Shown here one piece after another: positions 4,201-59,854 of a stretch of 64,000 nucleotides of DNA. The position numbers were made by a program, and so were the translations under genes. Every line of letters begins with the position of its first letter. The stretch's first letter is position 1. The notes beneath the pieces were generated by a model. The model did no database searches. It was given only the letters and a program-made list of their open reading frames with translations, and was not told the origin of the DNA. Source of the stretch: Halichondria panicea (lineage: Eukaryota; Porifera; Demospongiae; Suberitida; Halichondriidae); assembly GCF_963675165.1 (NCBI RefSeq), contig NC_087391.1:5010646-5074645 (forward strand), in the 5' to 3' direction.

Positions 4201-7200
4201 AACGGATGTCCGGTAGACGTGGGAAGTGGGTGGAGACTTGTGGGGAACGGGTACGTTGCATTGGAGGAGAATTCCATCAGTCACTCTGATTTTTCATTGA
4301 CCTTTGAACTGCACACTTTGGACTCTGACGCTCTAGTTTTATTCGCTTATAGTGCCGATCTTGAAAATGCTCTTGGTATTGAAATCCGAAACTCCTCGCT
4401 CTATGTTGTTGCCCGTGGCAACGGAACCAGATACATTTTGATTGGTCGCCAGCATGCCCCCTGTGCAACGAACAATTTATCCATACGTTTGACTGTAAAT
4501 GGAACGACAGTTTCGATCAGTACGCTCGGAGAAGATAGTTACATCGTGACGAATTTGTGGCCTGTTACCATTCTTACGTCAGCTGTGTATTTTGGGGGTG
4601 TTCCTAGGGGAAGTCCCGGCTATGCTCTGGCTGTGCAGCTGGGCCTCAACGTTGCTACTCGGCTCAGTGGATGTATGAGAAGTGTGGAGCTGGTGTCAGG
4701 TGGTGTGGGCGTGGGCGTGAGTGTGGGTGACTCGTCTCAGGTTAGATTTGATGGGTGTGGCCTCACCAGAGGAAGTGGGTGTGTCTCTCCAGTGGATGTC
4801 AATGTTGGTACAGGAATGTCTTATACTGACGCACCATTGGAGTCGTTCACAGGTAATCAAGTACTGCAATACCATAGATACAATACATCACCGCATTCTG
4901 TACAAAGCCCCAATATTGCAGAATTGTTAATTATTTTTTTGTACACAGATTACCTTCATCGTGTGAGTGCCAGTAACTCTGTTGGAACAGCTGTGAGTGG
5001 GTGGGTTGCTACGACAACACTCCCCGGAGGTTAGTAAGATCACACAATTCATGCATTCATTGTTTGTAGTGAAGTAAGTTATGTAAGGTACCAGTAGGTT
5101 GTAATTAATTAAGATGAGCGTTTGTAGCAGTGTTCTCCCTGTATATATATAGCGTTGGTGATTGCACAATAAGGCTTGCCGTAAATTGTTAGCTACAGTA
5201 CTGTACCAGCACGCACACGTCATTCATACACCCACTCCACACACCCCACACGCACACTTCATTCATACACCCACTCCACACACACACACACACAGTGCCG
5301 GCTCTGGTGACTGTTTCCCTGGTAGCTAATACAACTGACTCTCTCTCCGTCACGTGGACAAGACCCAGTGTCACCAGAGGCTTGATTACATCATATGACA
5401 TCACAGCCCTCCCTACGAGCACAGTTGGTCTCCCTTCTCCCCTCGGCAGTGTATCTGTGAGCTCATTGGTCGTATCGTCACCAGAGATGGTTCTCGTGGC
5501 AACGCTGAGTGGTCTGGAGCCTGCTACTACTTACGAGGTCACAGCTACAGCCTTCACCCGTGGGGGGGCTAGTACAGGACCCCCCACCAAGCTCAGCACT
5601 GGGGAAGCAGGTATGTCAACATACAGGATCCAGTTAGTGACAATGGAAAAGGCTTGTTAAATAGACTTATGTAATTCCCTGTAAAGCCTACGGTAGAAGT
5701 TCATTCTAGCTGATCGAGCAATTCGGTATAATATAGTGAATTTATTTGCACAACATTTTGACAATTACATTATTGTCTTAGTGAAAATTCTACTTGCGTG
5801 TACAACTATTAAACTCATGAGCTCAATCTTTTGTTCCATGCGCAGTACCGGTTGGTGTTCAAGCTCCAATGGTAACCCTTGTGGAGTCACGGCAACTCGG
5901 TATCGCTTGGCAACAGCCCACCATCCCCAACGGCATCATCGTGCGTTTCGACTTGTTTTTAGATGGTGAAATTCGATTCTCTGGCCCCAATAACTCCACA
6001 ATCATCAGTTCTCTATCTCCTTTCACTGAGTACTCACTTCTCCTACAAGCGTGCACTAGTGTGGGGTGCTCCAGCAGCGCCATGGTAACCGGACAGACAC
6101 TACCAGATCAACCAATGGGATTGGCTGCTCCTAATCTCACCGCTCTCAGTCCGAGCTCGATAGAGGCCGTATGGGACTTTCCCCAAGAACCGAACGGAGC
6201 CATTTTAAGGTTCGAACTTCGACAACTTTTCGGCCCAGAGCAATCCCAGTTCATTGTTGTATTTAACGGATTGGGACTTGAGACCACTCTTACTGGTTTA
6301 ACCCCGAACACACTGTATACTTACCAGCTGGTGGTATTCAATGCAGGGGGTAATGGGGTCAGCGATACCGCGAGTGTGGTGACTCTAGAGGGGGTCCCTG
6401 ATGGCGTTATACCCCCCACAGTGCTCGTTGTCAACTCAACCACTCTTAATATCACATGGTTCGAACCGACCATCCCTAATGGCGTTATCACCGAGTACAT
6501 TTTATTACAAAATGGGACAACTATTTTCTCCGGACTCACCTTCTATTTCGTCGTTTCCGACCTTCAACCCTTCAGCTTCTACTCGTACTCTATCATGGCG
6601 TGTACTGTACGTAACTGCAGCTCTAGCGCACCCACGGTTACCATGACGCCAGAAGCCCGTCCAACCGGTTATATACCCCCCACAGTCGTAACCATCACGC
6701 CCACATCTATCCAACTCCTCATTAATCCCGTCATCTCCCCCAACGGAATTGTTACGTACATCCTCACACTTAGTGATTCGCCTGACCCGCTGTACAATAG
6801 TTCCGTCCCCTCGACTGTCACTATTGACAACCTGAGACCGTTCACCGAGTACAGCTTGGTCCTGGTGGTTAGTAACAGTGCTGGATCACTCATTGGTCCC
6901 TCGTTTTCCCTCACTACGCAGCCCTCAGGTGAGTGCCTGTTGCTATAGCTAAATGTACACACTTACGTATGGTATGGTTGCCCCCCAGTTAAAATATATT
7001 TTTGCCTCCATTATTATTTTGATGAGCAATTGTAAAATGGATTTATTCTGAATTATTCATTAAACTGAATATACGTTGTGTTTTGTGTGTGCGTGTATGT
7101 TGTGATTTTTCCCCTCTATTTTTGCAGTCCCCGAAGATCTAGCTCCATCCACTGTCACTGCTCTCAATGCTACCACCTTCCGAGTGGACTGGACTCCGCC

Positions 7201-10200
7201 CACCTCACCAAACGGGTTGATCCAGTCATACGAGATCATCCTCAGCGGTGATGGTGCAACAGAGGTGTTGGAACAAGGCTTGTCGTTAGCGAGTGTTCTC
7301 AATGGACTACGACCTTTCACTGTCTACTATGTAATCATCAGAGCAAACAACACGGTGGGTAGCGTCGTCTCTATGGCAACCAACTTTACAACAGGCGAAA
7401 CAGGTATGTCAAGACATTGTATGTTGTGTATATGATATGTACGGCAGAGTATCCAAAACAGACTAAAATTAAAGTTGAAGAAGAAAAAGTGAAAGAGAAT
7501 GGAACCCATCACCCATGATCCTAACTTATGTTCCCCAACCACTAAGCCACTAATTAGTTTGATACTGATGCCATTAAACCTGTTTCACACAATGCATTCA
7601 CAAGTGTATGTACTGTATGTATATACAGACAATGCATCCACTGTACATGTACACACACAGCACCTGCTGGGTTTGATCGCATTGTTCCCCTGGAGATCAG
7701 CTCCCGCTACATTCTCCTCTCCTGGGACGAGCCGGCCGCTACTAACGGGATCCTCGTCAACTACACTGTCCTCGTAGGGGGTGTGGTCTTAACCACCAGG
7801 CCTCCCTCCGTGCTGGTGTACAATGTGACGTCCCTGAGTCCATTCACTGGCTACAGCTTCACGGTGCAGGCCTGTACTTCAGTGGGCTGTGTGGAGAGTC
7901 CAGTGCTGTCTCTAGTCACCGACCAAGACAGTGAGTTATTGTTGTCTGTATATCTGAACACGCCTAACTATAGTCTCTTCCGAGCTTTTAAAAATGAAAT
8001 TGGACCAAGGGGACATTAGTTACGGCCTGTGCCATTATACAATTATTATGCATACCGTCAGTGGAAGCTGTACAACTTCGAGAGCCATGACTTTAGTTTG
8101 TACAATTATTTTATGAAAGCTTGAAAAGACACTTTTCATGGTGTGCTCCAATGTTAATTTTAGTCCTGACCATAATTTTGTCATTTTCGCCATTGGACCA
8201 TGGGCTATAATCCGTGGTGCAAGGCCAAATTCTGGTATCTGTACATGCAAAATTGAAGACACCATTTGAAAGATCTGATTGTAACCATTCAGAAAATCAG
8301 AAATTGGATCCACGGAACTCAAGTTTATGGCAACTGAAAGAGTTCTCGAGCCATTGATTACACGGGGGACAGTGTACATGTAGTTGAACATCTTTCAGCA
8401 GCCATAACTATTGTATTATTGATCCAATTTCAAATTTTTTTTGATTTTCTGAAAGCTTAAACAGATAGCTTTCAAATGATGTGTTTAAATCCAAAAATTG
8501 GTTAGGGCCATAATTTGGCATTTTTCGCCTTTGGACCATGGGCTATAATCCATGGTATTTGGCCGAAACTGACAAATTCTGTTATTTCCCAAATATGAAC
8601 ATTAATTACGCCATTTGAAAGGTCTCTTTCTAAGCTTTCAGAAAATCAGAAAATTGTTGAAATCAGATCGATAGAACTCAAGTTATGGCTGCTGAAATCC
8701 CACTTCCCAACCATGCAATTATAGGGAGGAGTTGCTACTTTATACTTTTTGTTGATATGAAATGTAGTCGCTCTCATAATCCCACCATGCACACGTACAC
8801 GCACACAGTTCCCGAGGGACTATCAGAGCTGTCCGTCACCTTTGTCAGTGGGCGTGTTCTCATCACTTGGACCACACCCACAAGTCCCAATGGGATCATA
8901 AGTGAATACCGTGTTGAGAGGACCACCCCCTCTGTTGCTAACATCTCATTGGTCGGAACACTAACGGTGGAGCCATTTGTGGTTGCTGACATCAACGTTC
9001 GTCCGTTCACAATGTACATGTATCGACTGGTGGTCGAGAATGGAGGGGGCATGGCTGTGGGGGCGTTCACGAGCGTCACAACTCCACAAACTGGTGAGTG
9101 TGTGTGAGGGGGCGGTGTGGTGTCGTACTGGTCTGTTTCAGTATAGCTTTCAGAGTCGCAATAAAAGTATAAAGTAACGTGGGATTGTATTGTACAGTCT
9201 GTTTGCGTTCAGAATAGCTGTGGAAGTTCTGTGGTAAATTATGGCTTCATTAATGCTTTGTGTGATGGAAAATGGTAATTTTTAGCTGGTAGGAGATTAC
9301 CACTTCTAGATATAGAAAAGCGCTTTTTAACAAGGAATCCAATAGTATATGCAGTTGAGTAAACCATGACAAAGTTATGGCAATTAAGAGCGCCATTCTG
9401 AATGCTTAGTCTAACCATGTATGTTCCTGCAGCTCCTGAAGGTGTTCTCTCTCCTGCCCTTGAGGCGATATTGTCCACAGCTGTCACTGTGACCTTTAAC
9501 CCTCCTCTCACACCTAACGGCATTGTCACCATGTACACCATCACACGCCTCACACCTCTCACAACCTTCTCCTTCACACCGCAATCACTTCCCAACGACA
9601 CAAACCAATTCACCTTCAACGACAACACCCTCACACCTTACACTACTTACACGTACACACTGGAGGTGTGCACTATGGGAGGCTGTGCTGTTAGTGACCC
9701 CTCATCTGTACGGACGCTGGAGGACACACCTACTGGTGTTGCTATGCCGACTGTTGTCATGGTGAGCTCCGAGGAGTTAGAAGTGACATGGATGGATCCA
9801 AATATGCCAAATGGTATTATTCTGAGTTTTGATCTTCTGAGGAAATTTGTCGGCTTTGAAATATCACCTAGTCCAATAAACTGTTGCGAGGAGTACTTGT
9901 CAAACCGGTTGAACCAGTCAGACAAGTGTGATTATGTGACCTCTACAGACTTTAACGATACCTCCTTTACGGACTCTGAACTTCGACCTTTCACCTACTA
10001 TCAATACTGTATCATCGTCACCAATAGTGCTGGCTCAGCATTTAGTGAAGAGACCACACCCACTCGTACTGACCCTGCCCCCATGCCACTACGAGGTCCG
10101 ACACTCAATGCCACCACTCTCAATAGTACGGCCATCGAGCTTCGCTGGACCTCAGTCAATGTGGACACTCTCCTAGGACCTTTAGAAGGGTACTCAGTTT

Positions 10201-13200
10201 TCGGGGGGATTTCAGGTTCTCCTGGTTTTGGGGTGGAGCTATTTTCGGGACTGGAGTTGAGTTTTGTGGCCACTGGACTTATTGCGAGTACTGAGTACGT
10301 ATTTGTGGTTTCCGTTAGCAACGGCGAGGGAGTGGCTTTCAGTAACAACAACACAGCCATCACTGAGGAAGGAAGTGAGTAGTGCGTGTGTATGTGTATA
10401 TATTACATGTACGTAACTTTGACTGCCCATATTAACTCGAGATGAACAGAACTAAAGGATGCGTGTTATAGTAAGCCCTATCCAAGAGTGTACTTACATT
10501 TTGGGCCCATTTTTCCCAAATTTTGGAGCTCCTTAAAAATGTAATAAATTATGTGCATACAGTGATTGTAGAGCTTTTTTTTTACTGTGTCTTGTGCAAA
10601 ATAAAGTCAGAATTATAATGCAAATTGCATGTACAGTAATCAATTTTGGAACTACATGTAGTACACTACACTGTACTTGGACTTGTCGCTGGTAACTTAT
10701 TTAATGTACCTCTCCACTCCCACAGTCCCGGCTGAGCTGAGTGCTCCTGTGGTGACAGCTGTGTCGGACACCTCCCTCTCCGTCACCTTCTCAGAGCCAG
10801 CTGAGCCAAACGGTGTCATCATCCTCTACACAATCTATCTGTGAGTACCCGTATATACACTAGCTCCCACAGTACAGAACAGTGTACGTATTATAATTAT
10901 ATATAGTTACAATCGTGTTTATGGTGTCTCAGGCATTTCTGTCAATAATTAACGGCACGTGTAGAGTCTTAGTGTATCTAACAACAATAGATGCAATAAT
11001 TATGGTGATACAAATTGGAGCATTCATTGTCAGTTTGTTGACTCAATGGCTTAGTGGTTTAACTCATCTTATTTCTAGGGAGGAGTTAGTAGAGTGGGCC
11101 AGGGGTTCATTTACCACTCTTTTAGTATTATAGAGTACATAATTATGTTAGATTTTCCCACTGATAACCCCCCCACACACACACACAGTGACACCATGGT
11201 AGTGGCCAATGCAACGGCCCCAGGCACACTCTTCCTCACTAGCCTCACACCTTACACACTCTACATTGTACAAGTGGAGGCGTGCACACAGTTCGGATGC
11301 ACTGCCAGCGATCTGGTTGCCATGAGAACACTAGAAGGAGGTGAGTAGTTACAAAAGCCTCTCAAATAATAGTGTATACTTTTGTGAACATCTCCTTGTG
11401 ATACACTGTGACAGTCATGTACACGTGATCATGAGTGACAGACCACCCCCTCTCCCCCCCCGTACAGCTCCGTCTGGTCTGGCCTCCCCCTTTGTCACCA
11501 TCACTGGGCCCACCTCCGCCAACATCACATGGGGTAAGTACCGCACTATCACACCCACTAAATATATACGTAGAACTGAAATTGCTTTAATTTCAATTTA
11601 CTCAAAATTTGTTCATGGACACTATAAAGGTGTATCAGAAAACTATCTGCCTACTTTAATTGATAGTTATTTTTGTGAAATGCTGTACTTTGAACCCCCC
11701 TCCCCTCTGCAGGTGCTCCTAACCAGCCCAATGGCGTGATTACTGAGTATCAAGTGCTACTCTTCACACAAGGCTCGACTGAAGCCACGTTGTTATTCTC
11801 TGGACTTGATTTCGCTGTGTCGGTGTCGACTCTTGCTCCATTCACAACATACAACTTTCAAGTCGTGACCTTTAACCAAGCCGGAAACGTATCTAGTGTA
11901 TTTACCAGAAGGATCACAGATGAAGCCCCACCCACTTTTGTGCCACCCCCCACGGTGAGCGTGCAATCGTCCAATGAGATCGTTCTAACTTGGTCCGAAC
12001 CCATCGAATTGAACGGCATTTTGATTAGCTATCGAGTCTATCGCGATAACGAAGCTCTAATATCGACCACCCTCCTGACCACCTATTCTGACAACCGTCT
12101 GGAGCCTGCCACTACCTACACCTTCACTCTAGAGGCTTGCACTAATGGCGGATGTACGAACAGCTCACAAGTATCAAATACAACATTTGAAGCACTCCCT
12201 GAGGGCGTCTCGGACCCAGAACTCGTTAATATCGGACCTCGCTCTGCAACTATCAGATGGGAAGCTCCAACCATACCGAATGGAATTATCACAAACTATA
12301 TCTTCACTCTTTTGACAAACGACACTCAGTTATTTAACGGACTCGCGTTGTCTTTTGAACTTGATAATCTGACGCCATATACGAACTATTCGTTGTTATT
12401 GGAGACCTGTAACAGTATTGGATGTGTAGCAGGTGCTCGTCTCGAGGTACCCACTCTTCAGGATATTCCCGAGGGTTTGGACGCCCCCTCACTAAGAGAT
12501 CTAACCTCTACGGAAGTAGCTATTGAATGGAGCGCACCTACTGCTCCTAATGGTGATATCATCACGTACATACTTCGCCGTGGAAATGAATCATTTCCAA
12601 GCGACCCTGAGGTCATCTTCCGAGGTCTGGCGTTCTCATTCAACGATGGTGGACTACTAGCAGCCACTCTCTATTTCTACACAATCGAAGCCGTCAACGG
12701 GGCTGGCAGTTTAACAAGCACTCGTAGTGATTTCCAAACCGTTCCAGACCTCCCAGGGGGTATTTCACCCCCTACAGTCGAGGTTCGCGGAGCTAACGAG
12801 ATATTCGTGTCATGGTCCGAGCCTACCCTTCCGAATGGCGATATTTCTCGCTACACACTGTTCATTAATGGAAATGGGATACCGTTGGGAATTTCGTTTG
12901 CATATACTGCCAGAGAACTGACTCCGTTTACCGTGTACTCATTTTACTTTGAGGTCTGTAATCAAGCTGGATGTGCAAGTAGCGTGTCTGTCACTGTGGT
13001 AACCGAGCAAGCACTTGCCGAGGGAGTAACTCCGCCCACTCTCACCGTCCTGGGTCCTACGTCACTCCGAGTCTCTTGGACACCTCCTCTCTCCCCCAAT
13101 GGAGTTATATCGAGATACGAAATTCGGCGTCGACTTTTCGAGAACATTTTCACCGAGACCATTCAACACAGTGGGGACTCTTCTGATCTCAGCTTCACAA

Positions 13201-16200
13201 ACATCGGACTTAGTCCTTTCACTAATTATGAGTACAGACTGAACGTTTTTAATGGTGCTGGTAACGTATTTAGTGACTGGATTTCGGCCATGACGACTGA
13301 AGATGTACCGGCTGGTGTTTCAATACCCATGATTGCAGATGAGGACATCTTTGCGAGAAATGTTACAGCTAGTTGGCTCCCACCCTCTGCACTTAATGGA
13401 ATCCTGTTGAACTATCGTTTAGAGTATCGTCCTCTTATTGACCCTACTACAAACTTACCTGGAAGCATTGTCATCGTGGGTACTTACCCTACCGATGTTA
13501 CCATGGCTACTGCTGTCGGACTGTTGCCCGTGACAACGTACCAGTTTAGAGTGGTGGCTATTAATAGTGCTGGAGAGGGGACGAGTGATTTTGAGACAAT
13601 AATGTCGAGAGAGGATGCTCCTGAAGAAATACAACCAATTATTGTGTCTGCCCGAACGGGCACTAGTCTTTCGTTGTCATGGAATCCACCTTTAACCCCT
13701 AATGGACAGATACGAGATTACATGTTGTACCTGAACGACGAGCTTGTATATGATAACAGTATCACCATGACTACCATTCAAAACCTTCAACCATTCACCA
13801 CTTATTCTATTCAGTTAGTTGCCTGCACTTTTGTGGCTTGTGGCTTCGGTGACGTACAGTCCATAGCAACGGCTACGATTGCCCCTGCCGACCAACCAGC
13901 ACCCAGTGTTATTGCCCTGTCAGCAAGAAGTGTGGAGGTGGTGTGGGACGCTACTAATCGACCCAATGGAATCATTACATTGTACGAGATTCTACGACAA
14001 AACGACGGCAATCCTAACACCATGGCTACCATCGCTAGTACATCAGATCTCCTAAATAGACGGTATATTGATACGACTGTTCAACCCGATACAAGTTATG
14101 AGTATGCAATTCGAGCTATCAACATTATTGGTAACACTGTCAGTGACTTCCGTCCAATCAGAACTCCTGAAGCAGCCCCTGAGGGCGTGTCAGCTCCCAG
14201 TCTGAGCGTGCTCAGTAGCACCTCCATCCTCGTAACATGGACTCCGCCCTCTCTACCCAATGGGATTATACAAACTTACCGTGTTTTCCGAAGTGGAGGA
14301 GGCGTCTTTAATGTATCCGTGTACGATGATCTAGGCACAACTTTCACTGATGCTCTGCTTTCCCCGTTTAACGAGTACTCGTATTTTGTCCAAACCTGTA
14401 CTCTCGCTGGTTGCACATCAGGACCACCCTCCTCTGCTACCACGGACGAAGACACACCCACTAACTTACGATCCCCTCTCCTTTCAGCCGTGTCTGCAAC
14501 AAGTATCTCAATCTCATGGTCTCCTCCGGACAATCCAAACGGAGTTATAATATCATACACAATCGTTACAACGCCGGGAAACATTCAATTGACCACTACT
14601 GCTGATCTGAGTAGAGTCATCACCAATCTCTTACCGTTCACAATATATGCCGTCAGTCTTGAGGCTTGCAATTCTGTAGGCTGTACGCAATCGGATGCTG
14701 ATGTACGGACGCAAGAGTCTACCCCGCAGTTCCTACGGCCCCCCACACTGAGTGCAATCAATGCCACAGCTGTAGAGGCGACATGGTCGGAACCATCTCG
14801 TCCAAATGGTATCATCATTCGCTATATCCTCAGAAGAGATGGGATTACGATTTTCGACGGAAATATGCTAATGTATGTGGAGGCTGTTTTGAATCCGGAC
14901 ACTTCGTATTCGTACACACTCCAAGCCTTCACTGGAGCAGGGTCTGGGGAGGAGACTAATCCGACCACTATCCAAACCCCCAGAGACACGCCAGACGATA
15001 TCCGCCCACCCCTTGCCATGGCAACCAGCTCATCTTCAATACAAGTATCCTGGACTCCTCCTGGACAACCGAATGGTGTGATTCAACGCTATGTCCTGCT
15101 ACAAGATGGAACAGAAGTGTTTACTGGATTAGGTTTCATATACGTTGCTAACGGGCTCCAGTCGTTCACCCAATATGTCTTCCAACTGATGGTGTGTACT
15201 AGTACTTGCGGAGAGAGTTCAGAAGTCACTGAGCAGACATTGGAAGCTCCGCCCACTGGACAAGCACCCCCCACCCTGATTCGTTATCGCAACACCACGG
15301 TAGCGATCACCTGGTCACCCCCATCGTCCCCTAACGGTGTCATCATCAGTTACCTCGTAGAGAGAAGACTTGTACCAAGCAGTGACTTCACGCTTATCTC
15401 GAGCCAATCTGTGTTGAGCTTCCTCGATCAAGATGACATCCTAGTTCCAGCTATGTCTTACGAGTATAGGATCACTGCAATCAACACTGCCGGACAAGTA
15501 GCTAGTGCTCCAATCAGTGTGACGCTATTTGAAGCAGCCCCTGAGGGCATACCTGACATCCTGGTTACAGAAGTGACTGCTAATGTCATCAGTGTGTCCA
15601 CCACGCCTCCAGCCTCTCCCAATGGTGCTCTGACTAACTACACACTTTATAGAAATGGACGAATCGAGAATTCAATTGCGGCTAATTTTCAGGCTACTAT
15701 TTCGTTCACATCTTCCAATCTGGATCCGTTCACTTCCTATGCACTCCATGTAGAGGTGTGTACGAATGGTGGGTGTGGTCAGAGTGGTGTGATGAACGTG
15801 AGGACGCTGGAAGCCCCGCCCACTGGACAAGCCCCTCCCCAAGCGACTGTACTCTCTGCAATGTCTATTAATCTCTCTTGGTCACCACCCATCAGTCCCA
15901 ATGGACTCATTGCAGGGTAAGTACTGTGATTGAACACTTGCGTAGTTTGTGTACATTTATTAATTAACTATCTCTTCTCTGTTAAGTATCATGCGAGATC
16001 TCTTTAATTATGTGTCTGCCTATATATTGTAATAAACTTACAACCTATCCCCCCAGATACACACTGTGGTATCGTACGGCCTGCCCTGCCCCCCCTCAAG
16101 CCCTCCTCTCTCTGCCACCCTGCACCGTTGGACCTCGTTCTCTCATTGTTGCCAACTTCTCCTCCTTTGTCTTCATGTTCAGTGGGAGTGGCCTAGCCCA

Positions 16201-16549
16201 CCCCCTCCCCTACACTGCTTACCAGTTCATAGTGGGAGCGGTCAACAGCGTTGGGTCCGTGGAGTCAGCTTACTCAACAGCTGTCAGCACACAAACCAGT
16301 CGTAAGTGGATGATTTCTATATCCGCAGTTATTGTCATACAATCACACTTTTATGGGAGCCAGCTGGTTTATCTTTATCTTTCATTTTCAGCACATTTAA
16401 TGGACTGTTGTGTGTGCAGTTTTAATTGAATTGTAGTATATACATCTTGAACACACACACACACTCCCCCCCACACACACACACACACACACACTCCCCC
16501 ACACACGCCCATACACACACACGCCCCCACACCACACACACACACCACA

Positions 16550-16594
<45 letters not shown>

Positions 16595-16947
16595 CAGCTC
16601 CTGAGGCTGTCCCTGGAGGCCTGGTCTTCATGAAAGACGATGTGTCTGGAGTGATATTCATGGATTGGTTGAGAGCGTTCCAGTTCAACGGACCCTTCCT
16701 GACCTCCAGTGTGGAGAGGAACGGAATCTTGCTAGTCCAGCGTCCAATCACATCGTTGAATCTCACCAACGAACCCAGGGGAATATGTAAGTTATATAAA
16801 AGTTGAACACTTCGAGTTCATTTGTTGACTCAGCACACTAGAAAATCAATTCGCTGTGCATATACATAGTCTTTAGGGAGTTTTTTGAGTATATATGTCA
16901 TTGTACTGAAACCAACAATACAATCGAACACTGTTTTCATATCAAAA

Positions 16948-16978
<31 letters not shown>

Positions 16979-19902
16979 TACTATCTATTTAATGCCTGTT
17001 GCTAATTCTAAGAACCAAAATTTGAGGTTAATGTTTGTTTTGTGCTTGCTTCAGCTTAACCACATAGAAGAACCCACATTGCCCCAACCCCTATCAACTA
17101 CATGTACCACAAAACCTGGCCCAGACAATACAGTGTTGTACTTTATACCTATATAAGCCCCCCTCAGAAGTTTTCTTTTAAAATCCAATTAACTTGAAAT
17201 ATCACAGCAACCAATATTAAGTCAGCTTGATTTACAGCTTTACAATAATTATTCAGCATGGCCCCAATGTGAATAGATGTACAATAACTATTGAGTGTTA
17301 TATACCACTGTAGTTGCATGTGTATGTGACTGAATGCAACAGATGAATGGGGAGGGTTGGTGCACCGTTAAAGACTCTTTAACCCATCATTCTCGGCTCT
17401 CCAGGCCGAGCATCTGTTTGCTTTTCTGTTTCTGTCTGTTCTCTGCCTTGTGGTGTTTGCCTTTCTGTTGTTAACCTACCTTAATTGTGCATACTTTAAT
17501 TAAATTAAGCACATATTCCAAATTTAACAGATCAGCATGGCCACCCCCAGTAACATAATGTGGATATGGACATACATGTAGATAGCTAATTATGACATAA
17601 TCTATACTATACTTCCAACCATTGGTGTGTTTAATAATTTAAAGAAACGAAGGCGTTGGCAGCATTTTTCTTAGCCTCTAAAGAAAGACACAGAAAGTAA
17701 AATCCTTATCAATTACTACATCTACATAATTACCCAAACCCCCCTCCCCCTGACCTCCCCTGAGAGTATTAAAAACCAGTAAAAAAACACAATTCAAGTA
17801 AAAAGACTAGATTACAAGAACTGAAGGTAAACTACATAGTAAATTACATATTATTAGAAGCATGAATACAATAATTATAACTTATAGTAGTTATTCCTGC
17901 AGCCATTCATGTCTCATAAGCAATTTAATATGTAAGTGCATTATGGAAATAGGAGAGGTGGCACCCTCTTCTCTGGTCAGATAAGGCAGTTCCTCACAAT
18001 TTTTGTTTCAACCCCTCAAACACACACACACACATGCAGCTCTGACGTACGTGGTCCGAGTGGTGACACAGGCTGGCCAAGCCAGTATTACCAGAACCAC
18101 ACAACTAGCTATAGGTAAGGTCATGCGATGCTAAACTCCAGTCCTAGTTGGCAACTTGCTTTCACTACATGTATATCCACCAATAGTGCGGACTCTTGCT
18201 ATATACAATTTAGTGGCCGGTGCAAAATCTTTAAGTAGTGTCTACGTACGTGTTGTGTTGTTCTATTCTTGCCACACCTATTATTGTGATTATAGCAGCT
18301 CAAAAGTGATTATAGTTGTTTCATTCTCTTTCACTCTCAGTCGATACAGTCACTCCCACACCTGATTCGAGTACGACCACACCGCCCCCTGTAGCCACGG
18401 AAACACCGTTCTACCAACAAGCCGCCTTCATCATAGGCATGATTGTGCTTGGTGTTGTTTTAGTGTTCCTAGTTATCGCTGTGATTGTCTTCCTATTGGT
18501 GAGGCCTAAGGGTGACTCCGCCTACAAGGTCCGACCCTCCACGGCACTAAAGGACATGACGGGTCCCAGTCAGGAGTACAGTAGGATGGAGCACTCCCCC
18601 TCACCTAAACGACTCACACCCTCCCCGATACCAGTCACCCCCTCCCCCAACCACACATCAGGCAGCTGGAGCCCAGGGGACCCCTACAATGTAAGTTCCT
18701 TCACTTTATTAATTAAGCTAATTAAAGGTGATTAGCGCGGCTTTACTCTTGGGGAAATTCAGTTGTGTAGACAGACTAATTGCTTTGGTTCCGAATACTA
18801 CTAAGCAACAGCCAGTGCATTTGTTTTTGGTTTGCGTTGGTTTAGAGTTAGTAATATCTTAGTGAGTGTGTGTGGCCAAATGAAAACTGATTTGTCTATG
18901 TCGAGATGTTAGCGTTGTTGTGTTTGGTCTAAGTAACCATACCTTAATAACACTGGTCAAGTGTCTGCACAATGTCCTAACTGTTGTCACTGTAACACTG
19001 ACAAATAGAGCACCTCCTCTGTCGTCATGTGATCATGTACAAACTTAGTTAGCAGTCACAACCCCCCCCCCCAAATTAGCTGTGCAATATTGATCAATGT
19101 GTATGAACTTCTGTTTGCCTGCTGCAGGGTGACATCCCAGACTATGCCTCCGAAGATCAGGGTGTGGTCGTCACTCCACGGAGGAAGAAGTACACTCCTC
19201 GCAGAATGGAGTCAGCCTCGCTCATTGAGAACGAGCATCTACAGCTGCCAGACACTGTGAGTGCATGCACGTCTCTGTGGTAATGTGTGTAAACACCTTG
19301 TTTGGAAGCCTCTTTAGAGTTTCCTACAGAAACGGTTTCCTACTTGTCAGTTTGTGTGTACACACTTGACAATATACGTACATGTATGTAGATGGGCCAA
19401 AACGAAGCCATTTTCTTGAATCCCCTGTTTCAAATGTGGTCTGCAGCTACCTACCGCAGTGTGAGGGAGTTTTCCTAGTTCTATTTGCATCCAAATTCTT
19501 AAGACTATGATTATGACTTAGTACCAAGGGCGTATAAAAGAAGAGGGCACATTCAACTAGTACATTCAACTAGTACACGTAGCGAGCAGAATTTACGACG
19601 TGAGTGGATGAGTGTGAATTTGCATGAAATGCTAAAAATATAATTATATTCTATTTTTAGCACATTTATCCGCTGTGAATTTCTGGCATGCCCTCTCTTT
19701 GCACTACTAATTGTTCACATTGTGTACATTTGTTTGTATTGTCTGTATCCACAATGAAGCGTCTATTGACCGTGTGTGTGTTCACCTATGCATGCAGACC
19801 ATTTCCAGTCATGTGTCCCCCGGACAGTTTGTTCCTGCCAGTGATGATTTCGGCTCATTCAAAGCACAACAACACACAACTTTCACAGACACCAAAGTTT
19901 AG
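1..19902 (+). CDS. USH2A-like: Usherin-like giant transmembrane protein, 5' end missing
   Basis: Coding is open at the left edge (codons start at base 2). Exons by GT/AG joins: 1-873, 1104-1270, 1913-2764, 2980-3261, 3509-4852, 4949-5029, 5296-5610, 5846-6928, 7128-7403, 7661-7930, 8809-9093, 9433-10374, 10726-10840, 11189-11340, 11468-11533, 11713-15916, 16057-16301, 16598-16786, 18040-18114, 18341-18690, 19128-19256, 19798-19902. The join gives 4132 residues with no stop. Order: about seven laminin-EGF repeats, four FN3, two laminin G placed inside a fifth FN3, about 29 more FN3, one TM helix, a cytoplasmic tail ending DTKV. This order is that of usherin, the basement-membrane and stereocilia/periciliary protein whose tail binds PDZ scaffolds. 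The laminin N-terminal region expected in the family must lie left of the window. Most introns are phase 1 between FN3 units. A laminin or receptor phosphatase is excluded by the domain order and the lack of a cytoplasmic enzyme. Confidence 0.9.
1295..1490 (+). repeat. 26-bp minisatellite in usherin intron
   Basis: About 7.5 head-to-tail units of 26 bases with core CCCCCTCAGGCAATACGT begin 24 bases after the donor at 1271. Units differ at one to four bases. Because 26 is not a multiple of three and units lack stops, all three frames are open; these are not genes. Confidence 0.95.
1653..1748 (+). repeat. 32-bp tandem repeat, three copies
   Basis: Three adjacent 32-base units beginning TGTTATACACT. 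The first differs from the others by one base. Same intron as the 26-bp array. Confidence 0.95.
1766..1867. repeat. Short inverted repeat in usherin intron
   Basis: Arms of about 20 bases (GAGCTGCCATTTGAATA at 1771 and its complement near 1849) flank about 60 bases of AT-rich DNA. It may be a small foldback element; no terminal signature beyond the arms. Confidence 0.7.
1913..3261 (+). other. Usherin module: first four FN3 domains
   Basis: Exon 1913-2764 holds three FN3 units and exon 2980-3261 a fourth. Each has the early Trp, a PNG-type turn and a Tyr-containing F strand. The second and fourth carry a CTxxGC motif, the first and third a Cys-free version. Four FN3 before the laminin G pair matches the usherin family layout. 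Confidence 0.85.
3509..5029 (+). other. Usherin module: two laminin G domains inside a split FN3
   Basis: Exon 3509-4852 starts with the first half of an FN3 (Trp and QPNGII turn), then two laminin G domains. The first begins near 3655 with a SFSNEIRLTFRT strand, the second near 4225 with a HSDFSLTFELHT strand, and each ends in a Cys-containing SGC/AGC strand. The 81-base exon 4949-5029 supplies the second half of an FN3 (YLHRVSASNSVG). Laminin G domains bind glycans and matrix partners. The joins are in frame. Confidence 0.8.
5296..11533 (+). other. Usherin module: FN3 array, multi-exon part
   Basis: Nine exons from 5296 to 11340 plus a 66-base exon at 11468-11533 encode about 12 FN3 units and the start of another. 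Exon 5846-6928 has four FN3, exon 9433-10374 three. Exons 10726-10840 and 11189-11340 share one FN3, and the 66-base exon carries only the first strands of the next. In the fourth FN3 of exon 5846-6928 the usual early Trp is absent. The region acts as an extracellular stalk. Confidence 0.85.
8060..8700. repeat. Interspersed repeat in usherin intron, two tandem partial copies
   Basis: The phrase GGACCATGGGCTATAATCC occurs near 8195 and again near 8533, each within longer similar blocks (TTTCAGAAAATCAG, AACTCAAGTTATGGC). A third copy in the opposite orientation lies at about 45440-45680. No coding potential or terminal repeats were seen, so the class is unknown. Confidence 0.75.
11713..15916 (+). 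other. Usherin module: single 4.2-kb exon with about 15 FN3 domains
   Basis: One uninterrupted exon from an acceptor (CCCCTCTGCAG, ending 11712) to a donor (GTAAGT at 15917) encodes most of one FN3, 14 complete FN3 and the start of another. The PNG turn recurs about every 90-95 residues. It contrasts with neighbouring exons that hold one to four FN3, so introns were either lost here or never gained. Confidence 0.9.
16446..16592 (+). repeat. CA-rich microsatellite before a usherin acceptor
   Basis: Imperfect CA repeat with CCCC interruptions running to the acceptor CATGCAG that ends at 16597. Antisense CVCVCV reading frames here are artefacts. Confidence 0.95.
16787..18039 (+). other. Usherin intron of 1.25 kb, no gene
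   Basis: Holds a CA tract (about 16949-16977), AT-rich DNA and a short hairpin (CTCGGCTCTCCAGGCCGAG near 17393) beside a palindrome GTTAAAGACTCTTTAAC near 17368. No supported coding sequence. Confidence 0.6.
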
Positions 19903-32197: not shown

Positions 32198-33624
32198 CTA
32201 TCTACAAATACACGAAGTTATGGTGATTTTATCTAGTTTTTCTAGGTGAGTTCCATCTGGTCCAAAGAGGGGTGCTAATGATAATGTAGCAGACTCGAAA
32301 GAGTTCGGAATACAGCATGGTTCTGAGGCACCCACGGGGTTAGAGAGAATAGTAGCTCTTCGAGCGAGAAACTCCGAATGTTGGTTTTCTGCATTTGCTC
32401 GGCCACACAAACCCTTGCAATAGTTCAATGTCAGTACTTCAGGATGGAGAACCCAGGTCCAATTAAAATCTTTTCTAAAGTTTATAGACAGCGGTTGCAA
32501 TGCACAGTCAATTATTCCAGTATTGTAGCTCTCAGCATTTCGTTTGTGCAATGAGTCTACTTCTGTTGGGTCATACATAGATCTAGTTTCCGGTTCGTTC
32601 AAAATTGTTCTGATGACTAGTTGAGTTGTTGCATTATCAGAAGCAAACTGAATTTTCGGAGGTAGGGAGAATCCTTCTATGCCTGTTCTTATCTCAACTT
32701 GTAGGATTAGTTCTCCTTTGAGTGATGGAGTTTTGACTTTCCAAGTATTAATGGCTTCGGCTGCGTTGAAGATAGTGTATCCATTTTTGTCTGTTTTAAC
32801 ATTTCCAGCTACAGCGTGAATTTTTTGACTCTCTCCATAGTAGTTTTCCCCACCCGGCAACCAGTTGTAAATGTCGACTCTTTCTTCTGCTACTGCGCTG
32901 CTGTCGTCAACAACAAGTTTGTACAGTCTTAGGTCCGCCTCGGTTACGTCTTGGTGGCCATTGAGGTCAATATTGAACTTGAAACGAAGAGTATCCACGA
33001 GATAATTGCCATCAGTTGCAGCTGTAGGATAATGCAGATATATGTGAATGCAAAGTAAAGTAACAAAGCGATATCGTCAGTAAATGTACGACTAAAATGT
33101 ACACATACTACCACATGCATACGCTCAGGGAGTTACTCAATTGCACTTCCACTTAAAGGGATCTTTTGAAATCAGTAGCCATGCAAGTTCTTAGCTCTAT
33201 AGATGAGGTAATAGTTTGCATATACTGTACCTGATTGTGAGTGTTCAGTTTCCACTTCCTCAGGAAAGTACACCACTAGCCTGCTTGTCCTCTTGTCCAC
33301 CTCCACACAGGGCTTGACCTCTTTGTCCTGCAGCAGGTGACCAGCTCTAATGGCACCATAATCCCTGCTAATTTGTTCCTTGTAGGAAGTGATTGGCACT
33401 TCAAAAGAGGGATTCTCAGGCTCTTTGTCTAGGCCCAATCTCAGCAAAATTTCTTTCTTGAAAATATTTAAACGGAGTTTCTTTATTTCTTCTGGATTAC
33501 TGCTTTTTAGACAGCCTATCAATTCAGACTCTGAATCAGGTTTATAGTCTGCAGATCTAATTTCATGTCCACAGATCCATCCAAAATTCAGGAGCAATAA
33601 AGAGGTAGTCACTAGCCAATGCAT
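32198..33624 (-). CDS. TGF-beta superfamily ligand, seven-cysteine type
   Basis: Two exons, 33624-33231 and 33021-32198, join in phase 1 to 405 residues. A signal peptide (MHWLVTTSLLLLNFGWICG) is followed by a latency-type propeptide. A dibasic site after SLHKR precedes a 113-residue mature domain with Cys at mature positions 12, 41, 45, 75, 76, 110 and 112, the classic seven-Cys knot with YCKGLCG, EPCCIP and SCICR. The segment INFRKDFNWTWVLHPE is close to the TGF-beta subclass. A secreted dimeric signal for type I/II Ser/Thr kinase receptors is expected. Its neighbour upstream has the same exon layout, so the two are tandem duplicates. The processing site lacks Arg at P4, unlike the neighbour. 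Confidence 0.93.
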
Positions 33625-34187: not shown

Positions 34188-35887
34188 TTATCTACATTGA
34201 CACGAGTCTACTACCATTCCAGTTAGCTTATGCAATTCTAGATTTTGACCCTCCCCAACGAGGAGTACAGTTAACGAGCTGGTGTCATGAGGCACACAAC
34301 ACGGCTCAGGTGATGCAGTTGGGTTCATTGTTCTGAGTTGTCCTCGAAGTTCAAAGTTTGTAGTACCTGATGGCCAAATCCTGGGACATAATCCAGCACA
34401 GTATGTAAATTGAAATGTTTTAGGTGCTAAGATCCACGTAAAATTCAAGTCTTTGTGAAAGTTCACAGTAGTTTGCTTTATGCAACAGTTCTCCTCTTCT
34501 GGATTTGCTAAGCAAAATTCCCTACTGATTCCAACAGTTGACAGGCGCTTAGTTCTTGTGCTATTTCTCTTGTGATTCTCCGCAATAACTTTAATAACCA
34601 AATTAGCGTCCTTCGAACCCTTACCTCGTGAAGAATTGGGGACATCAAATTGCACAGTTGGTAGGTACAAGAGACCTGTATCTACAGTTTCTGAACAACG
34701 AATAACCACTTCAAAATCTAATGGGACGCTTAATCCGTCACTAAGCCATCTTCTCACGCCTTCTGTAACGTCGAATGATATGTACTGATCTTCTTCTGTT
34801 CTGACGTCTTGTGATTTTATTAACACTGGGTAGCTAATGTAGTTCCCATTTTCATCAATAAAAGTCGACTTCCAATAGATTTCAATATTTTCCGTCGGAT
34901 TAGGTGTTCTTTTAACTGATTCGCTATCGAAGATAATTTTGCGTTTGTATAGCTGCAAAGTTGCGGACCAGACCTCGGTTTGTGTTGGCAAGTGTACATC
35001 ATTGAAGCTCAGAGTATATCGAATTGGAGCGAGGAGCTCAGATAAGTGCTTCATTTCGGCACTGAGGAGGTCCTCAGGCAGAGGGGGGGTGGGGCTGGTG
35101 GGTTCGTATACAGCAGTGGTGGTTGCAGGTTTGAGTCTAGGATCTGTTTTAATAACAACGTCTTTATCGTCTTTATCGTCTTTGTTGTCTTTGTCTCGTC
35201 TGTATCTCTTGGCAATTAGAATTGAATCTGTTGGTGACATAGTGTGCGCGTGTGCATGGAGAAACAACGTTAGGGAATGCGATTAATTTCGCTATCAATA
35301 CAGCAGTTAAGGGAATTAAATGATTACCAGCCTATCAAAGGGTTCGAGTTACAGTTTGTTAGTTGAGTAGGTGATTATCAAGTGAAAAATGCATTTCAGA
35401 TAATTGCCATGGTGTTAACTTAACTGCTAAGCAACTCACCCCAATCAAATATATTCACAGAGGGGAGGTCCCCATAAAAATGGGATGGAAAGAAGAGTTT
35501 AACCTCTTTTGCGTAAAACGTCTCTTTCTCTTTACAACCATCCATCGTCTCTTGAGCCCTTTGCCCAACTACAATGGTTTCGTCTAATGCAACTGCAGCA
35601 GTGTAACTAGCAAAGTCCTCTTCACTGATCATCAGATCGTTTGGAGGATCTTCTGGTGGCTGCTCATAGCCCAGTTTATACAGTATCTCCTCTCTCAGAA
35701 CCTCCTTCCTTCTTTGCTCATGATCAGCCAGTTGTTCCCCCGGGGTCTCCTCCTCCTCGTCGCAGAGCTGGAGGGGAGCTTCTTGTGGTGAGTTGTGGTC
35801 CGGTATTGCAGCTCCTGATGCAGGCTTGCATAATGAGTGCGGCCAGAGTATGATTACAAGACACAGGGTTACAACTGGAGCTCGCAT
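34188..35887 (-). CDS. TGFB-like: TGF-beta-type ligand with nine-cysteine mature domain
   Basis: Exons 35887-35440 and 35227-34188 join in phase 1 to 495 residues. It starts MRAPVVTLCLVIILWPHSLC (signal peptide). The propeptide includes an acidic/basic KDNKDDKDDKD run. A furin site RTKR precedes a 118-residue mature domain with Cys at mature positions 11, 20, 21, 49, 53, 82, 83, 115 and 117. The extra early Cys and the CC pair, with CCIKQ, FHKDLNFTWI, CPRIW and SCQCR, match the TGF-beta subclass proper rather than BMP. It should act as a secreted, probably latent, dimer. It is same-strand and tandem with the seven-Cys paralogue. Which receptors it uses cannot be read here. Confidence 0.94.
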
Positions 35888-47437: not shown

Positions 47438-50769
<3,332 letters not shown>

Positions 50770-55066: not shown

Positions 55067-55240
55067 TAGGCCCAGGAAAGTCTTTGATCTTGCAACTTGT
55101 GGTTAGGCTTGCAGCCACCTGGACCTAATTATCTAATTATAAGAATAACAAGCGTGTATGAAATTTTAGAATAAATAAAATTAATCACAGAAAAGCTAAC
55201 AATATTTTATTTATAGTGACAAGATAGACCAAGTGAGGAC
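55067..55240. promoter_or_regulatory. Probable bidirectional promoter
   Basis: 174 bases separate the divergent start codons at 55066 and 55241. AT-rich, with TTTATTTATAG just upstream of the plus-strand gene. Inferred from spacing. Confidence 0.4.
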
Positions 55241-56698
55241 ATGTCAGGACGGTGCACTGGATGTACTAACAAGTATACATACTTTGAGCACCCCAGATTG
55301 TGTCCAGAGTGTAGAAGACAATTCTGTAAAACCTGTTTACCTAATCTTGCTCCTGGCAGCAAAAAGAAGAAGAAATCAGAGCCTTTGTACTCAGTGAACC
55401 CTTGTGTGTACTGCAATAAACAGAAGGACATCAGTGAAGTGGAGGAGGCTGAGATTTTGGAGAATTTTCAGGAGAGATTTTATAAACACTCACATACGGA
55501 ACCACCAATCCAATCACATATCGATCAAGAGCTTCGTAAAGGCCTACCTAAAGATGATGGTGGGGCTATTAGACTCTCAGAAAAAGATCGAGCCCTTGAA
55601 GAGCGATTGAAGAAGCTTAAAGAGTCCAACAACCCTCGGTCTAATTCGGGCGATATACACGACAGACTTGCACGATTGACAGGAGAAGAGGGCCCAAAAC
55701 CATTGCATTCTCCACCCAAAACTGGAGGGACCACTCAAGTCGACCAGACCAATGAACTGATCGAGAGAACTATCGAAGAAGCTAAACTTGACGAAAAACT
55801 TGAAGAGACTAGAGCCAAAGAAGACGACAATTTGCTACAGAGGCTTCAAGCTCTAAAAGGAGTCAAAACAACCAACACCCAAGCAAAGAAAGACGTAAAA
55901 AAAACAAACATTGATGTTAACATGTTTCTAGAAGATTTTGACATTGAGATTCCGGATGAAGACCCTGATAAGCTACTCGACGACTTACAAAAGTTTCAAG
56001 CCCGAGAAGAGCAAGCCGCACTTGCTGAAGCTAGCCATGAAGATATGCAGGCACTCATAAATACTGCCAAGGAACTAGCCAAAGAAGACGATAACACTGT
56101 TGCATCCAAAATATCTAATATCAAGTACCCAGATCTCGATGAAAAGGAGGAAGGAAAAGAAGTTTCTAAACTGATCAGTGATGTCCTAAACGAGATTGGT
56201 GAGGAGAAAGGCAGCAAAGAACAGCAAGAAGTAGATGACGGAGATATTGTTCGAAGTAAACTGGACCACCCCCCTCAAGATCTCAATATATCTTGGGACT
56301 ATTTTGGTCAGCAGCCATCAACTTCACAAGACGATCTCCCTGCTGCTCGGCAATTAGGAACGCAGTCAAGCGGGGAAGAGGATGACCCTGAATTACAAGC
56401 ACTAATAGAGAAGTTGAAAATTGAAGCAGAGCTGGACAGGAATTTGGAAGCGAGTGGGTTGAGTGTACGACCACTCGTACCTGAGGGGGAGAAGCAGTCT
56501 GAGGGAGCAAAAGCGTGGCCGGCAGCCTCAGGGAGTGATGAGGATTGCCCCTGGTGTTGTATCTGTAACGCAGATGCTGCAATCCGTTGTCGTGACTGTG
56601 ATGACGATCTGTATTGTACTCGATGTTTCTCTGATGGTCATGAACAGTTTGGATTGTTTGATCATCGCTATGCTTCATATGAACCACATAGATCTTAG
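55241..56698 (+). CDS. ZFYVE19-like: Abscission/NoCut checkpoint regulator-like protein
   Basis: Single exon, 485 residues. The N-terminal FYVE-related zinc finger has four CxxC pairs (C5/C8, C21/C24, C29/C32 and one near 55), RCTGC and RRQFCKTCL. The middle is charged and helical (ERLKKLKESN, VNMFLEDFDIEIPDEDPDKL). The C-terminal B-box-like finger has CCICN, IRCRDCDDDLYCTRCF and GHEQFG. This is the ANCHR layout, the protein that holds VPS4 at the midbody with CHMP4C to delay abscission and that binds phosphoinositides. An intronless form beside an intronless oxidase gene is of note; no poly-A tail or other sign of retrocopying was seen. Confidence 0.92.
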   Translation: MSGRCTGCTNKYTYFEHPRLCPECRRQFCKTCLPNLAPGSKKKKKSEPLYSVNPCVYCNKQKDISEVEEAEILENFQERFYKHSHTEPPIQSHIDQELRKGLPKDDGGAIRLSEKDRALEERLKKLKESNNPRSNSGDIHDRLARLTGEEGPKPLHSPPKTGGTTQVDQTNELIERTIEEAKLDEKLEETRAKEDDNLLQRLQALKGVKTTNTQAKKDVKKTNIDVNMFLEDFDIEIPDEDPDKLLDDLQKFQAREEQAALAEASHEDMQALINTAKELAKEDDNTVASKISNIKYPDLDEKEEGKEVSKLISDVLNEIGEEKGSKEQQEVDDGDIVRSKLDHPPQDLNISWDYFGQQPSTSQDDLPAARQLGTQSSGEEDDPELQALIEKLKIEAELDRNLEASGLSVRPLVPEGEKQSEGAKAWPAASGSDEDCPWCCICNADAAIRCRDCDDDLYCTRCFSDGHEQFGLFDHRYASYEPHRS

Positions 56699-57521: not shown

Positions 57522-59804
57522 CTATAGTGAGATCTGTACTATGGCTACACCCAGAATGGTTGCTCCAATATATAAGCTGACAGCACCCCCTGGGGAGAAT
57601 GTTGTCGCTCCATTGGCAATTATTCGTTTATAATCCTCAACACTCCACACAAAATCCCCGACCTTGTTAATACCATCCGGTGCCTCAACGTGTGCACTCT
57701 CATTGTACTCTCGAATGATGACACCCATCCCCTCGAGCTGATGAGACTCAATGTGGCAGTGCATGAACCAGTAGCCGGGATTGTCGGCTTGGAAGGCAAT
57801 CACAACATAACCTCCAGCCGGGACGATCACAGTGTCCTTTTGGATTCTCACATTAGCATTGTTAAAAATAGGTGCCGAAGAATTCCATCTTAGGTCACGA
57901 CACGTCGATACGTTATAGCAGACTACATCAGGGTTGTTATCCTTAAGCATACCGTCGTCACCGTAATTCCCATGCTGTACACTAAGTACATTGAATGAAT
58001 GGCCATGAAGATGAACAGGATGTGAGAAATTTCTATTTGGAACGGTTCCCACTGCGCTTAGAATGAATACGATGGCTGGTATGCTTGTAGCATCAAACGA
58101 ATTGCTTCCAATTTCCTTAACGTAAGTGCATTCACATTCATTAAAAGAACCATCACATTTACAACGCCTGGGTGTGTTCCTTTTATCAACATCATAAGCT
58201 CCCATGTAAGTTTGATATGGAGTTACTGGAAGTTTGAAATTTCGACCATTAATTGCACTAGTGCTTCTCTTTCCCTCAAAGCCGAAATTGAAAAACATGC
58301 TCGATTGAGCATTAATGTTCTGTGAGACATTAGAGGGAAAGAGAGCAATTAGTTCATGGAGATGGGTACAGTTCATGCCTGGAGCTTCCCTAAATGGGCA
58401 GTTAACTACTTTGCATTTATTGCTGTCAGTGCATGTTCGTGGTTGACTTGAAACACTGCCATACTCGGAGAGACCTTCAACATCAACCACACCTGATGCA
58501 TTATAGTGAAGAATGGCTTCTGCGGCATTTTCAACACCAGTTTCCAATGTTTCTGCTCTAATCCAGTAATTATTTGTAGGTTGATCAGCAGTTACGATCA
58601 CATCGTAGCGTTCTCCAGTATGCACAATGACATAATCGACATCTTCTACAGGCTGAAAAAAGTGTCCATCTGAAGCTATTACAACGAGTTTATGTCCATC
58701 GATAGAAAATCTGTATGCAAACAAACTTTGTGCACCAATCAATCGAAAACGATATGGTTGATCAGTGACAACATTGAAAATACTAAGTTTACTAGGTGCG
58801 AAACTTGAGTCTACATTGCGGTGTCTCCCTCTTCCATTTATCAACCCAGACCAATATGGTTGTGGGCCAACTTCAATATCATCAGAGCTTCTTGTACGGC
58901 TATACAAATCATTGCTGCGTATGGGAATATCACCAACTGGTTTGTTTGGATAAAATCCAAGAGTGGAATGGAGTTGAACAAACAAATTAAGAGAAGATTC
59001 CCGTTGCCAGTCAAGAAAAGTCAAAGTGTGTTCGTTTGTCAAATCAGGGAGTGGCATGCCTAATAGGGCTGAAACACGCTCTCTTCTACCGACACTCTCT
59101 TGTACAATAAGTGCTCCAAACAAACCATCAGTCCTCTGAGGACCAGCATGTGAGTGGTACCAATGTGTCCCAGCTGGAGTGGCCTCAAATATGTATGTAA
59201 ACTCTGCACCGGGAACAATGGGAGGCTGCGAAACAAAGGCAACACCATCCATCCAGGGAGATTTTCTTTGATGCATTCCATGCCAATGGATTGTAATTCC
59301 TTCACTTGTCAATTTATTGGTAACCTTGACAACAACAATTTGTCCTTCTGTAACTACGAGGTCTGGTCCCGGGATACGTCCATTTAGAGCAATGAAGAGA
59401 CGGTAGGTACTGCCATCCACAGTCATTGGGAGGCTGCAGCTGGGTAGTGTTTGAGAAGTATAGGTATAGAAGGATTGAAACGATATCTGCGAGCAGTCTC
59501 CACATTCAGGGACATCAGCAGTAGGGCAGTTAATCGATGAAGTGAGCTCATTCCCTTCCCAGTAGTAGGTGTCTCCTGGTGTGCCCCGAGTCACAATATC
59601 TCCCTGTGTGTCGAGCTTGTAACTGGTGAACGTTTGCAATTCTTCAACATCTAGTTCAAAGTAACACTCAGTGGCATTGCTCCTGCAGACACACTTCTCT
59701 TGTTGGTGCGCACAAGTGACATAATGACGACCGGGTTGACTTTGAGCAAATTTTGATAGCATAAACAGAGTACAAACAGCAAAAAGAAAATGCTTAGACT
59801 CCAT
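57522..59804 (-). CDS. Laccase-like multicopper oxidase, probably membrane-anchored
   Basis: Single exon, 760 residues from the ATG at 59804; an upstream ATG at 59819 is less likely because a TATA box lies only 27 bases before it and the signal peptide (ESKHFLFAVCTLFMLSKF) starts best at 59804. Three cupredoxin domains are present with all four copper motifs: HWHGMH, HWYHSH, HPVHLHGHSF and HCHIESHQLEGM, which give the trinuclear cluster, the type 1 Cys-His pair and an axial Met. A Cys-rich pre-domain with CAHQQEKCVCRS follows the signal peptide, a layout seen in animal laccase-like oxidases. The C-terminus is a 20-residue hydrophobic tail without a cytoplasmic part, so a GPI anchor is likely. 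It would oxidise phenols, metals or similar reductants at the cell surface; the substrate is not readable. Confidence 0.95.
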   Translation of the reverse strand: MESKHFLFAVCTLFMLSKFAQSQPGRHYVTCAHQQEKCVCRSNATECYFELDVEELQTFTSYKLDTQGDIVTRGTPGDTYYWEGNELTSSINCPTADVPECGDCSQISFQSFYTYTSQTLPSCSLPMTVDGSTYRLFIALNGRIPGPDLVVTEGQIVVVKVTNKLTSEGITIHWHGMHQRKSPWMDGVAFVSQPPIVPGAEFTYIFEATPAGTHWYHSHAGPQRTDGLFGALIVQESVGRRERVSALLGMPLPDLTNEHTLTFLDWQRESSLNLFVQLHSTLGFYPNKPVGDIPIRSNDLYSRTRSSDDIEVGPQPYWSGLINGRGRHRNVDSSFAPSKLSIFNVVTDQPYRFRLIGAQSLFAYRFSIDGHKLVVIASDGHFFQPVEDVDYVIVHTGERYDVIVTADQPTNNYWIRAETLETGVENAAEAILHYNASGVVDVEGLSEYGSVSSQPRTCTDSNKCKVVNCPFREAPGMNCTHLHELIALFPSNVSQNINAQSSMFFNFGFEGKRSTSAINGRNFKLPVTPYQTYMGAYDVDKRNTPRRCKCDGSFNECECTYVKEIGSNSFDATSIPAIVFILSAVGTVPNRNFSHPVHLHGHSFNVLSVQHGNYGDDGMLKDNNPDVVCYNVSTCRDLRWNSSAPIFNNANVRIQKDTVIVPAGGYVVIAFQADNPGYWFMHCHIESHQLEGMGVIIREYNESAHVEAPDGINKVGDFVWSVEDYKRIIANGATTFSPGGAVSLYIGATILGVAIVQISL

Positions 59805-59845
59805 CCTGTGTATATGCATGTATTGTGAATGAGAGTAAGAAAAAA

Positions 59846-59854
59846 CTATTTATA
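59846..59854 (-). promoter_or_regulatory. TATA box of the multicopper oxidase gene
   Basis: TATAAATAG on the minus strand, 42 bases before the ATG at 59804, followed by AGTTTTTTCTTACTC. GCATGC repeats lie just upstream. Confidence 0.75.

Follow-up and report, generated by a model that had tools for sequence, protein, structure and literature searches.

We describe a ligand gene of the demosponge Halichondria panicea, gene A, that lies in a 64,000-nucleotide stretch of contig NC_087391.1 (assembly GCF_963675165.1, forward-strand positions 5,010,646 to 5,074,645), which we call the window and whose numbering is used throughout unless a contig is named. Gene A is an intact predicted gene with a prodomain, a furin site and a nine-cysteine ligand. 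We consider it probable that its product is a secreted ligand of the TGF-beta sensu stricto type, inherited from early animals, rather than an activin- or BMP-type ligand that reached nine cysteines by convergence. Sequence comparisons support a mature domain closer to TGF-beta proper than to activin or BMP and, independently, a prodomain that resembles the latency-associated peptide (LAP) of TGF-beta. The earlier note on this DNA left the choice between an ancient and a convergent nine-cysteine form undecided; because the prodomain resembles LAP independently of the ligand, an ancient origin is favored, whereas the trees do not settle between strict orthology and a retained ancestral form.

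Structure of Gene A

The features of gene A and of its tandem paralogue, gene B, are as follows.

34188..35887, minus strand: gene A, precursor of a TGF-beta-type ligand, two predicted exons, about 495 residues in the preferred model
35440..35887, minus strand: exon 1, with a hydrophobic, signal-peptide-like start (judged by eye) and the straitjacket part of the prodomain
35762..35764, minus strand: Cys 42, N-terminal to the first straitjacket helix; MAFFT places it in the column of the LTBP-bonding Cys of TGF-beta1-3
35477..35716, minus strand: straitjacket and latency-lasso region, through FYAKEV (HMMER alignment to the TGF-beta2 proprotein)
35228..35439, minus strand: predicted intron, acceptor ACAG/ATTCAA
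34188..35227, minus strand: exon 2, with a charged linker, the arm domain of the prodomain, the furin site and the mature ligand
34689..34820, minus strand: arm-domain block with YISFDVTEGVRRWL and the Cys of the bow-tie region (VVIRC)
34545..34556, minus strand: RTKR furin-type cleavage site, read from the sequence
34191..34544, minus strand: mature domain, 118 residues, nine Cys
32198..33624, minus strand: gene B, 405 residues, predicted exon 1 at 33231-33624 and exon 2 at 32198-33021

The coding sequence starts with the ATG at 35887 and stops at 34188. A good phase-1 donor, GTGAGT at 35439, follows the stretch FYAKEV...IFDW, and exon 2 is one open frame of 364 codons. The acceptor at 35227 matches the donor phase and gives the 495-residue product, although it is a weak choice: several other in-phase acceptors exist, so the charged linker (KDDKDDKD) may belong either to the exon or to the intron. 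A candidate acceptor picked by eye near 35061 (CTCAG/T) was rejected as out of phase with the donor. Two Pfam domains score above their curated cut-offs in the exon-2 frame, TGF_beta at E 2.2e-20 and TGFb_propeptide at E 2.7e-8; exon 1 has no Pfam match at E<=1. Structure prediction for exon 2, with gene B as the sole partner sequence, reached a mean predicted local distance difference test score (pLDDT) of 39. The intron falls in the same stretch and in phase 1 in gene A, gene B and L007, a ligand gene on another contig, with exon-1 lengths of 448, 394 and 340 nucleotides, respectively. Since BMP, myostatin and inhibin genes also have a phase-1 first intron, intron phase separates no subfamilies. 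The exon-1 sizes of vertebrate TGF-beta genes, as given in part of PMC2881917, likewise correspond to phase 1.

The Mature Domain

After RTKR, gene A has exactly nine Cys, all nine of which align with the Cys columns of TGF-beta3, and the KDLNFTWI, CPRIW and SCQCR motifs are all found; the earlier note's reading of these features, cleavage site included, was thus correct. When the exon-2 frame was searched against 177,635 distinct PDB sequences, the best 19 of the 60 matches listed (65 in all) were TGF-beta1-3 (E 1.2e-26 to 1.5e-20), followed by BMP3 (3.8e-14) and GDF11 (4e-14), with GDF15 at 7.6e-10; mature-only TGF-beta3 scores 86.8 bits vs 55.6 for BMP3. The reverse search with TGFB3 hits six places in the genome, led by gene A (89.4 bits) ahead of gene B (55.5) and L007 (52.4), and BMP2 hits four places, where a gene on contig C2 comes first (64.7 bits, 35% identity) and gene A second (40.6). 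Identity of the mature domain to vertebrate TGF-beta1-3 is 34-38%.

In an unrooted tree of 14 rows with human references only, gene A, gene B, L007 and TGFB1-3 form a group with support of 98/97. Together with the PDB matches this bears out the earlier proposal of a TGF-beta-proper-like ligand, more so than an activin- or BMP-like one. Approximately unbiased (AU) tests were run on seven of eight groups tried, the eighth being already in the tree. Grouping TGFB1-3 with gene A alone is compatible with the data (p 0.116). A position with INHBA and GDF8 is disfavored (p 0.029; all three genes, 0.009), as is one with the BMPs (p 0.032; three genes, 0.016).

Several results weigh against a TGF-beta placement, and some from the prodomain and the receptor contacts, given below, join them. 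The AU p values are uncorrected for the number of groups. The identity of gene A to TGFB3 (37.5%) is hardly above that to BMP3 (35.7%), and gene A keeps just 2 of the 19 residues private to TGFB1-3; for comparison, it keeps 1 of 3 private to INHBA/GDF8 and none of the 4 private to BMPs. The full tree of 24 rows (12 own ligands, 12 human) is poorly resolved, with 41/79 on the branch of interest and long branches meeting, and the well-supported tree drops ten of these rows (nine other own ligands and AMH) and contains no invertebrate reference. Nor do the AU tests reject gene A with GDF15 (p 0.074; three genes, 0.068). This last result, and the nine Cys found in those families too, are what speak for gene A being a ligand of the GDF15/Maverick or activin type. 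We hold that to be very improbable: GDF15 has a long branch and, at 24.5%, is the least similar to gene A among the 11 aligned references, and the activin/GDF8 position fares poorly in the tests above.

The Prodomain

A LAP-type straitjacket prodomain is detected in gene A, and the straitjacket half in particular is TGF-beta-like. Exon 1 searched by itself against PDB (queried as 35435-35887) has a sole match at E<=10, the TGF-beta2 proprotein (E 0.049); the prodomain searched alone likewise finds TGF-beta proproteins and resembles pro-activin and pro-GDF8 barely if at all. An N-terminal LAP-type Cys is present and aligned by MAFFT in gene A, gene B and L007, its spacing to the straitjacket helix in gene A being about six residues longer than in TGFB1. 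One of the two bow-tie Cys that link the two LAP chains is present, and no RGD was seen in gene A.

On the other side, the arm part of a prodomain profile built from the three genes matches BMP10 (2.2e-8) and BMP9 (1.8e-6, 3.2e-6), the LAP Cys column is not specific, since INHBA and GDF8 carry a Cys there as well, and in unrooted precursor trees the three sponge genes branch outside a group of TGFB plus activin/GDF8 (93/93). The precursor trees, the few TGF-beta-private residues and the sharing of the nine Cys and the prodomain Cys column with activins and GDF8 would fit a gene A that descends with slow change from the ancestor of the whole TGF-beta/activin branch, without being strictly orthologous to TGF-beta1-3; that ancestor's nine-Cys ligand and LAP-type prodomain would also have been preserved in TGF-beta sensu stricto. 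We think this unlikely, though it deserves to be taken seriously: the mature-domain tree parts the sponge genes and TGFB1-3 from activin/GDF8 and the BMPs (although the root could lie on that branch), and a retained common ancestor sits poorly with the scant or missing likeness to pro-activin and pro-GDF8. It also overlaps with the reading that we prefer, which asks only for an ancient ligand of the TGF-beta type.

Gene B, L007 and the Other Ligands of the Genome

The genome (131 Mb, 39 contigs) holds 13 matches to the TGF-beta domain. Nine-Cys mature domains occur in two of the 12 own ligands in the tree, gene A and L007; the first Cys of L007 lies two columns off in the alignment. The L007 frame searched against PDB finds TGF-beta1-3 first, as 22 of its 25 matches, the remaining three being inhibin beta chains. 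Gene B has the same two-exon plan as gene A and a TGF-beta-like mature domain with seven Cys, lacking Cys 1 and the second Cys of the CC pair.

That most other ligands of the genome have seven Cys, and that the adjoining gene B lacks the extra pair, shows that the pair comes and goes; gene A could then be a BMP-like or unclassified ligand, particular to sponges, in which it was gained. Such convergence seems to us highly improbable. The similarity to TGF-beta extends over the entire mature domain and is found separately in the straitjacket exon, the AU test speaks against the BMP placement, and gene B, still TGF-beta-like in sequence, is more simply explained as a tandem duplicate that lost the Cys residues.

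The thirteenth match, L012 (G000:C9:5180308-5180448), is an open fragment of 60 codons that resembles the start of the gene B mature domain and diverges after about 40 residues; it lies on another contig, represents a truncated gene B copy and, being partial, was left out of the trees, in which L001 is included without its start. L001 (G000:C2:2847806-2848102), the C2 gene found first by BMP2, is the most BMP2-like ligand of the genome and groups with GDF15 in the 24-row tree, where long branches are flagged. According to the portion of a 2024 review available (PMC11226491), BMPs are seemingly not found in sequenced sponges other than Oscarella, and three BMP-like ligands are mentioned for glass sponges in part of PMC5684314. 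Close duplicates of ligands also occur as two pairs far apart in the genome, on C1 (L010, L011) and on C15/C4 (L008, L009), and L009 has one extra Cys.

Receptors and Genome Context

Gene A keeps three of the ten TbetaRII contacts of TGF-beta3 (W32, K37 and G93; contact list from part of PMC2881917), so the details of vertebrate TbetaRII binding are unlikely to be conserved. TGF-beta2 itself keeps seven of the ten, and the contacts are a functional rather than a defining trait. Genome searches with TB (PF00683), Activin_recp (PF01064) and ecTbetaR2 (PF08917) gave no match, which, in searches run without a positive control, does not show absence. The genome has two matches to type I receptors with a GS box, C6:1744054 (L027) and C6:1757536 (L026), about 13 kb apart on opposite strands. 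Pfam supports the GS box and the kinase of L027; its ectodomain and membrane span were recognized by eye, and its Cys-rich stretch, to the eye like a three-finger receptor ectodomain, has no PF01064 match.

The suggestion that this DNA came from a probable early-branching animal gains indirect backing from the gene content. There are at least 28 homeodomain matches (44 candidates scored), among which we take NK2, Msx, Bar and LIM types, recognized by eye, to be present; none of eight homeodomain sequences from 12 loci looked Hox-like by eye. No clear BMP2/4 was found in the genome, the best BMP2 match being that of 35% identity. We presume that this homeodomain set and the want of a clear BMP2/4 match a sponge rather than a tunicate, a cnidarian or a ctenophore. 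In a cathepsin L-like exon (L021:1459-2079), to judge by eye, Ser replaces the active-site Cys (SSWAF) and the expected His is missing; the exon was considered as a silicatein marker for this Ser-for-Cys change and rejected, since ordinary cathepsins L score above the silicatein entry. No mitochondrial contig was recognized from the first 800 bases of contigs C20-C39 (20 of the 39), eight of which were also scanned for tRNAs.

Comparison with Known Ligands

Gene A has in common with the vertebrate TGF-beta1, -2 and -3 proproteins the nine Cys on the same columns, the RxxR site, the straitjacket helix, the FYAKEV/YYAKEV motif, the SFDVT..WL block of the arm and the upstream Cys. It differs from them in its long charged linker, in a ligand encoded by one exon and in having no RGD, which is also missing from TGF-beta2 according to the part of PMC8931421 consulted.

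The earlier note's remark that TGF-beta proper has mostly been treated as a deuterostome group agrees with a 2022 statement that the subfamily is found in deuterostomes only (PMC8931421, in part), yet the restriction is not fully borne out, since sponge candidates had already been described in Halisarca, glass sponges and Amphimedon. In the demosponge Halisarca dujardinii, HduTGFbA-C were assigned to TGF-beta sensu stricto in 2021, and HduTGFbA remained in that clade when the full precursor was used; the available text of that study (PMC8235796) suggests that the propeptides of these ligands are missing or undetected, and it reports HduTGFbB/C as a tandem pair, like genes A and B here. Compared with the Halisarca ligands as described there, gene A differs in that a LAP-type prodomain is detected. 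The glass sponge TGFbLa and two Amphimedon ligands were called TGF-beta-like from their C-Xn-CC motif, which gene A shares; the parts of PMC5684314 and PMC3169577 that describe them do not use the prodomain to link them to TGF-beta proper. An Amphimedon ligand with 6/7 Cys is also on record (PMC2000352, in part). For the ctenophore ligands MlTGFbA/B, the authors themselves doubted a TGF-beta identity, and the full precursor shifted them next to activin and myostatin (excerpts of PMC3169577); ctenophore TGF-beta has low support in the portion of PMC11184263 available. Literature searches close to the subject, which covered open-licence PMC papers, listed no title on a sponge latency-type prodomain. 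Gene A is not the first such sponge ligand reported; the detectable LAP-type prodomain is the main addition and argues against convergence.

A Model for the Gene A Product

Under the preferred reading of a TGF-beta sensu stricto-type ligand, a furin-like protease would cut the precursor at RTKR and the mature chain would form a cystine-knot dimer in which the additional N-terminal Cys pair closes in the TGF-beta manner. The prodomain would be retained as a LAP-like straitjacket that may keep the ligand latent, and its N-terminal Cys could tie the complex to a covalent partner. Once released, the ligand would presumably signal through the type I and type II receptor kinases of the genome itself. 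Furin cleavage, the disulfide dimer and the hold of the prodomain on the ligand are here modeled on established TGF-beta biology.

Other Genes in the Window

Around the ligand pair, the plus strand carries at 1837-18735 a large usherin-like gene with laminin G domains, many fibronectin-III-like repeats and a probable membrane span close to its end (the last two by eye), and at 55220-56698 an open frame whose B-box is ANCHR-like, by name an abscission-checkpoint protein. The minus strand carries HSP90-family exons that by eye resemble the endoplasmic reticulum form GRP94 (47628-49162) and a laccase-like multicopper oxidase frame (57522-59849; 775 codons) in which Pfam finds three Cu-oxidase domains.

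Implications

Part of PMC3306419 describes LTBP as later than the organization of fibrillin, which itself predates the cnidarian-bilaterian split. It is possible, at odds that we would put a little short of even, that the common ancestor of sponges and bilaterians already had the nine-Cys ligand, the LAP straitjacket and the tethering Cys, at a time when neither LTBPs nor RGD-integrin release existed, and that protostomes and cnidarians lost or remodeled this set. In that case the original partner of the tethering Cys would have been some other component of the matrix. If our reading of the prodomain is true, the subfamily that was called deuterostome-only would date to the base of the animals, and the latency-type prodomain would predate LTBP. 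Sponges would then be a place to study the role of latent TGF-beta at a stage that preceded LTBP, integrin activation and TbetaRII binding of the vertebrate type. The LAP-type prodomain of gene A allows the age of latency to be tested, and the sequence of this gene suggests that the latent TGF-beta signal may be older than the animal branch often credited with it.
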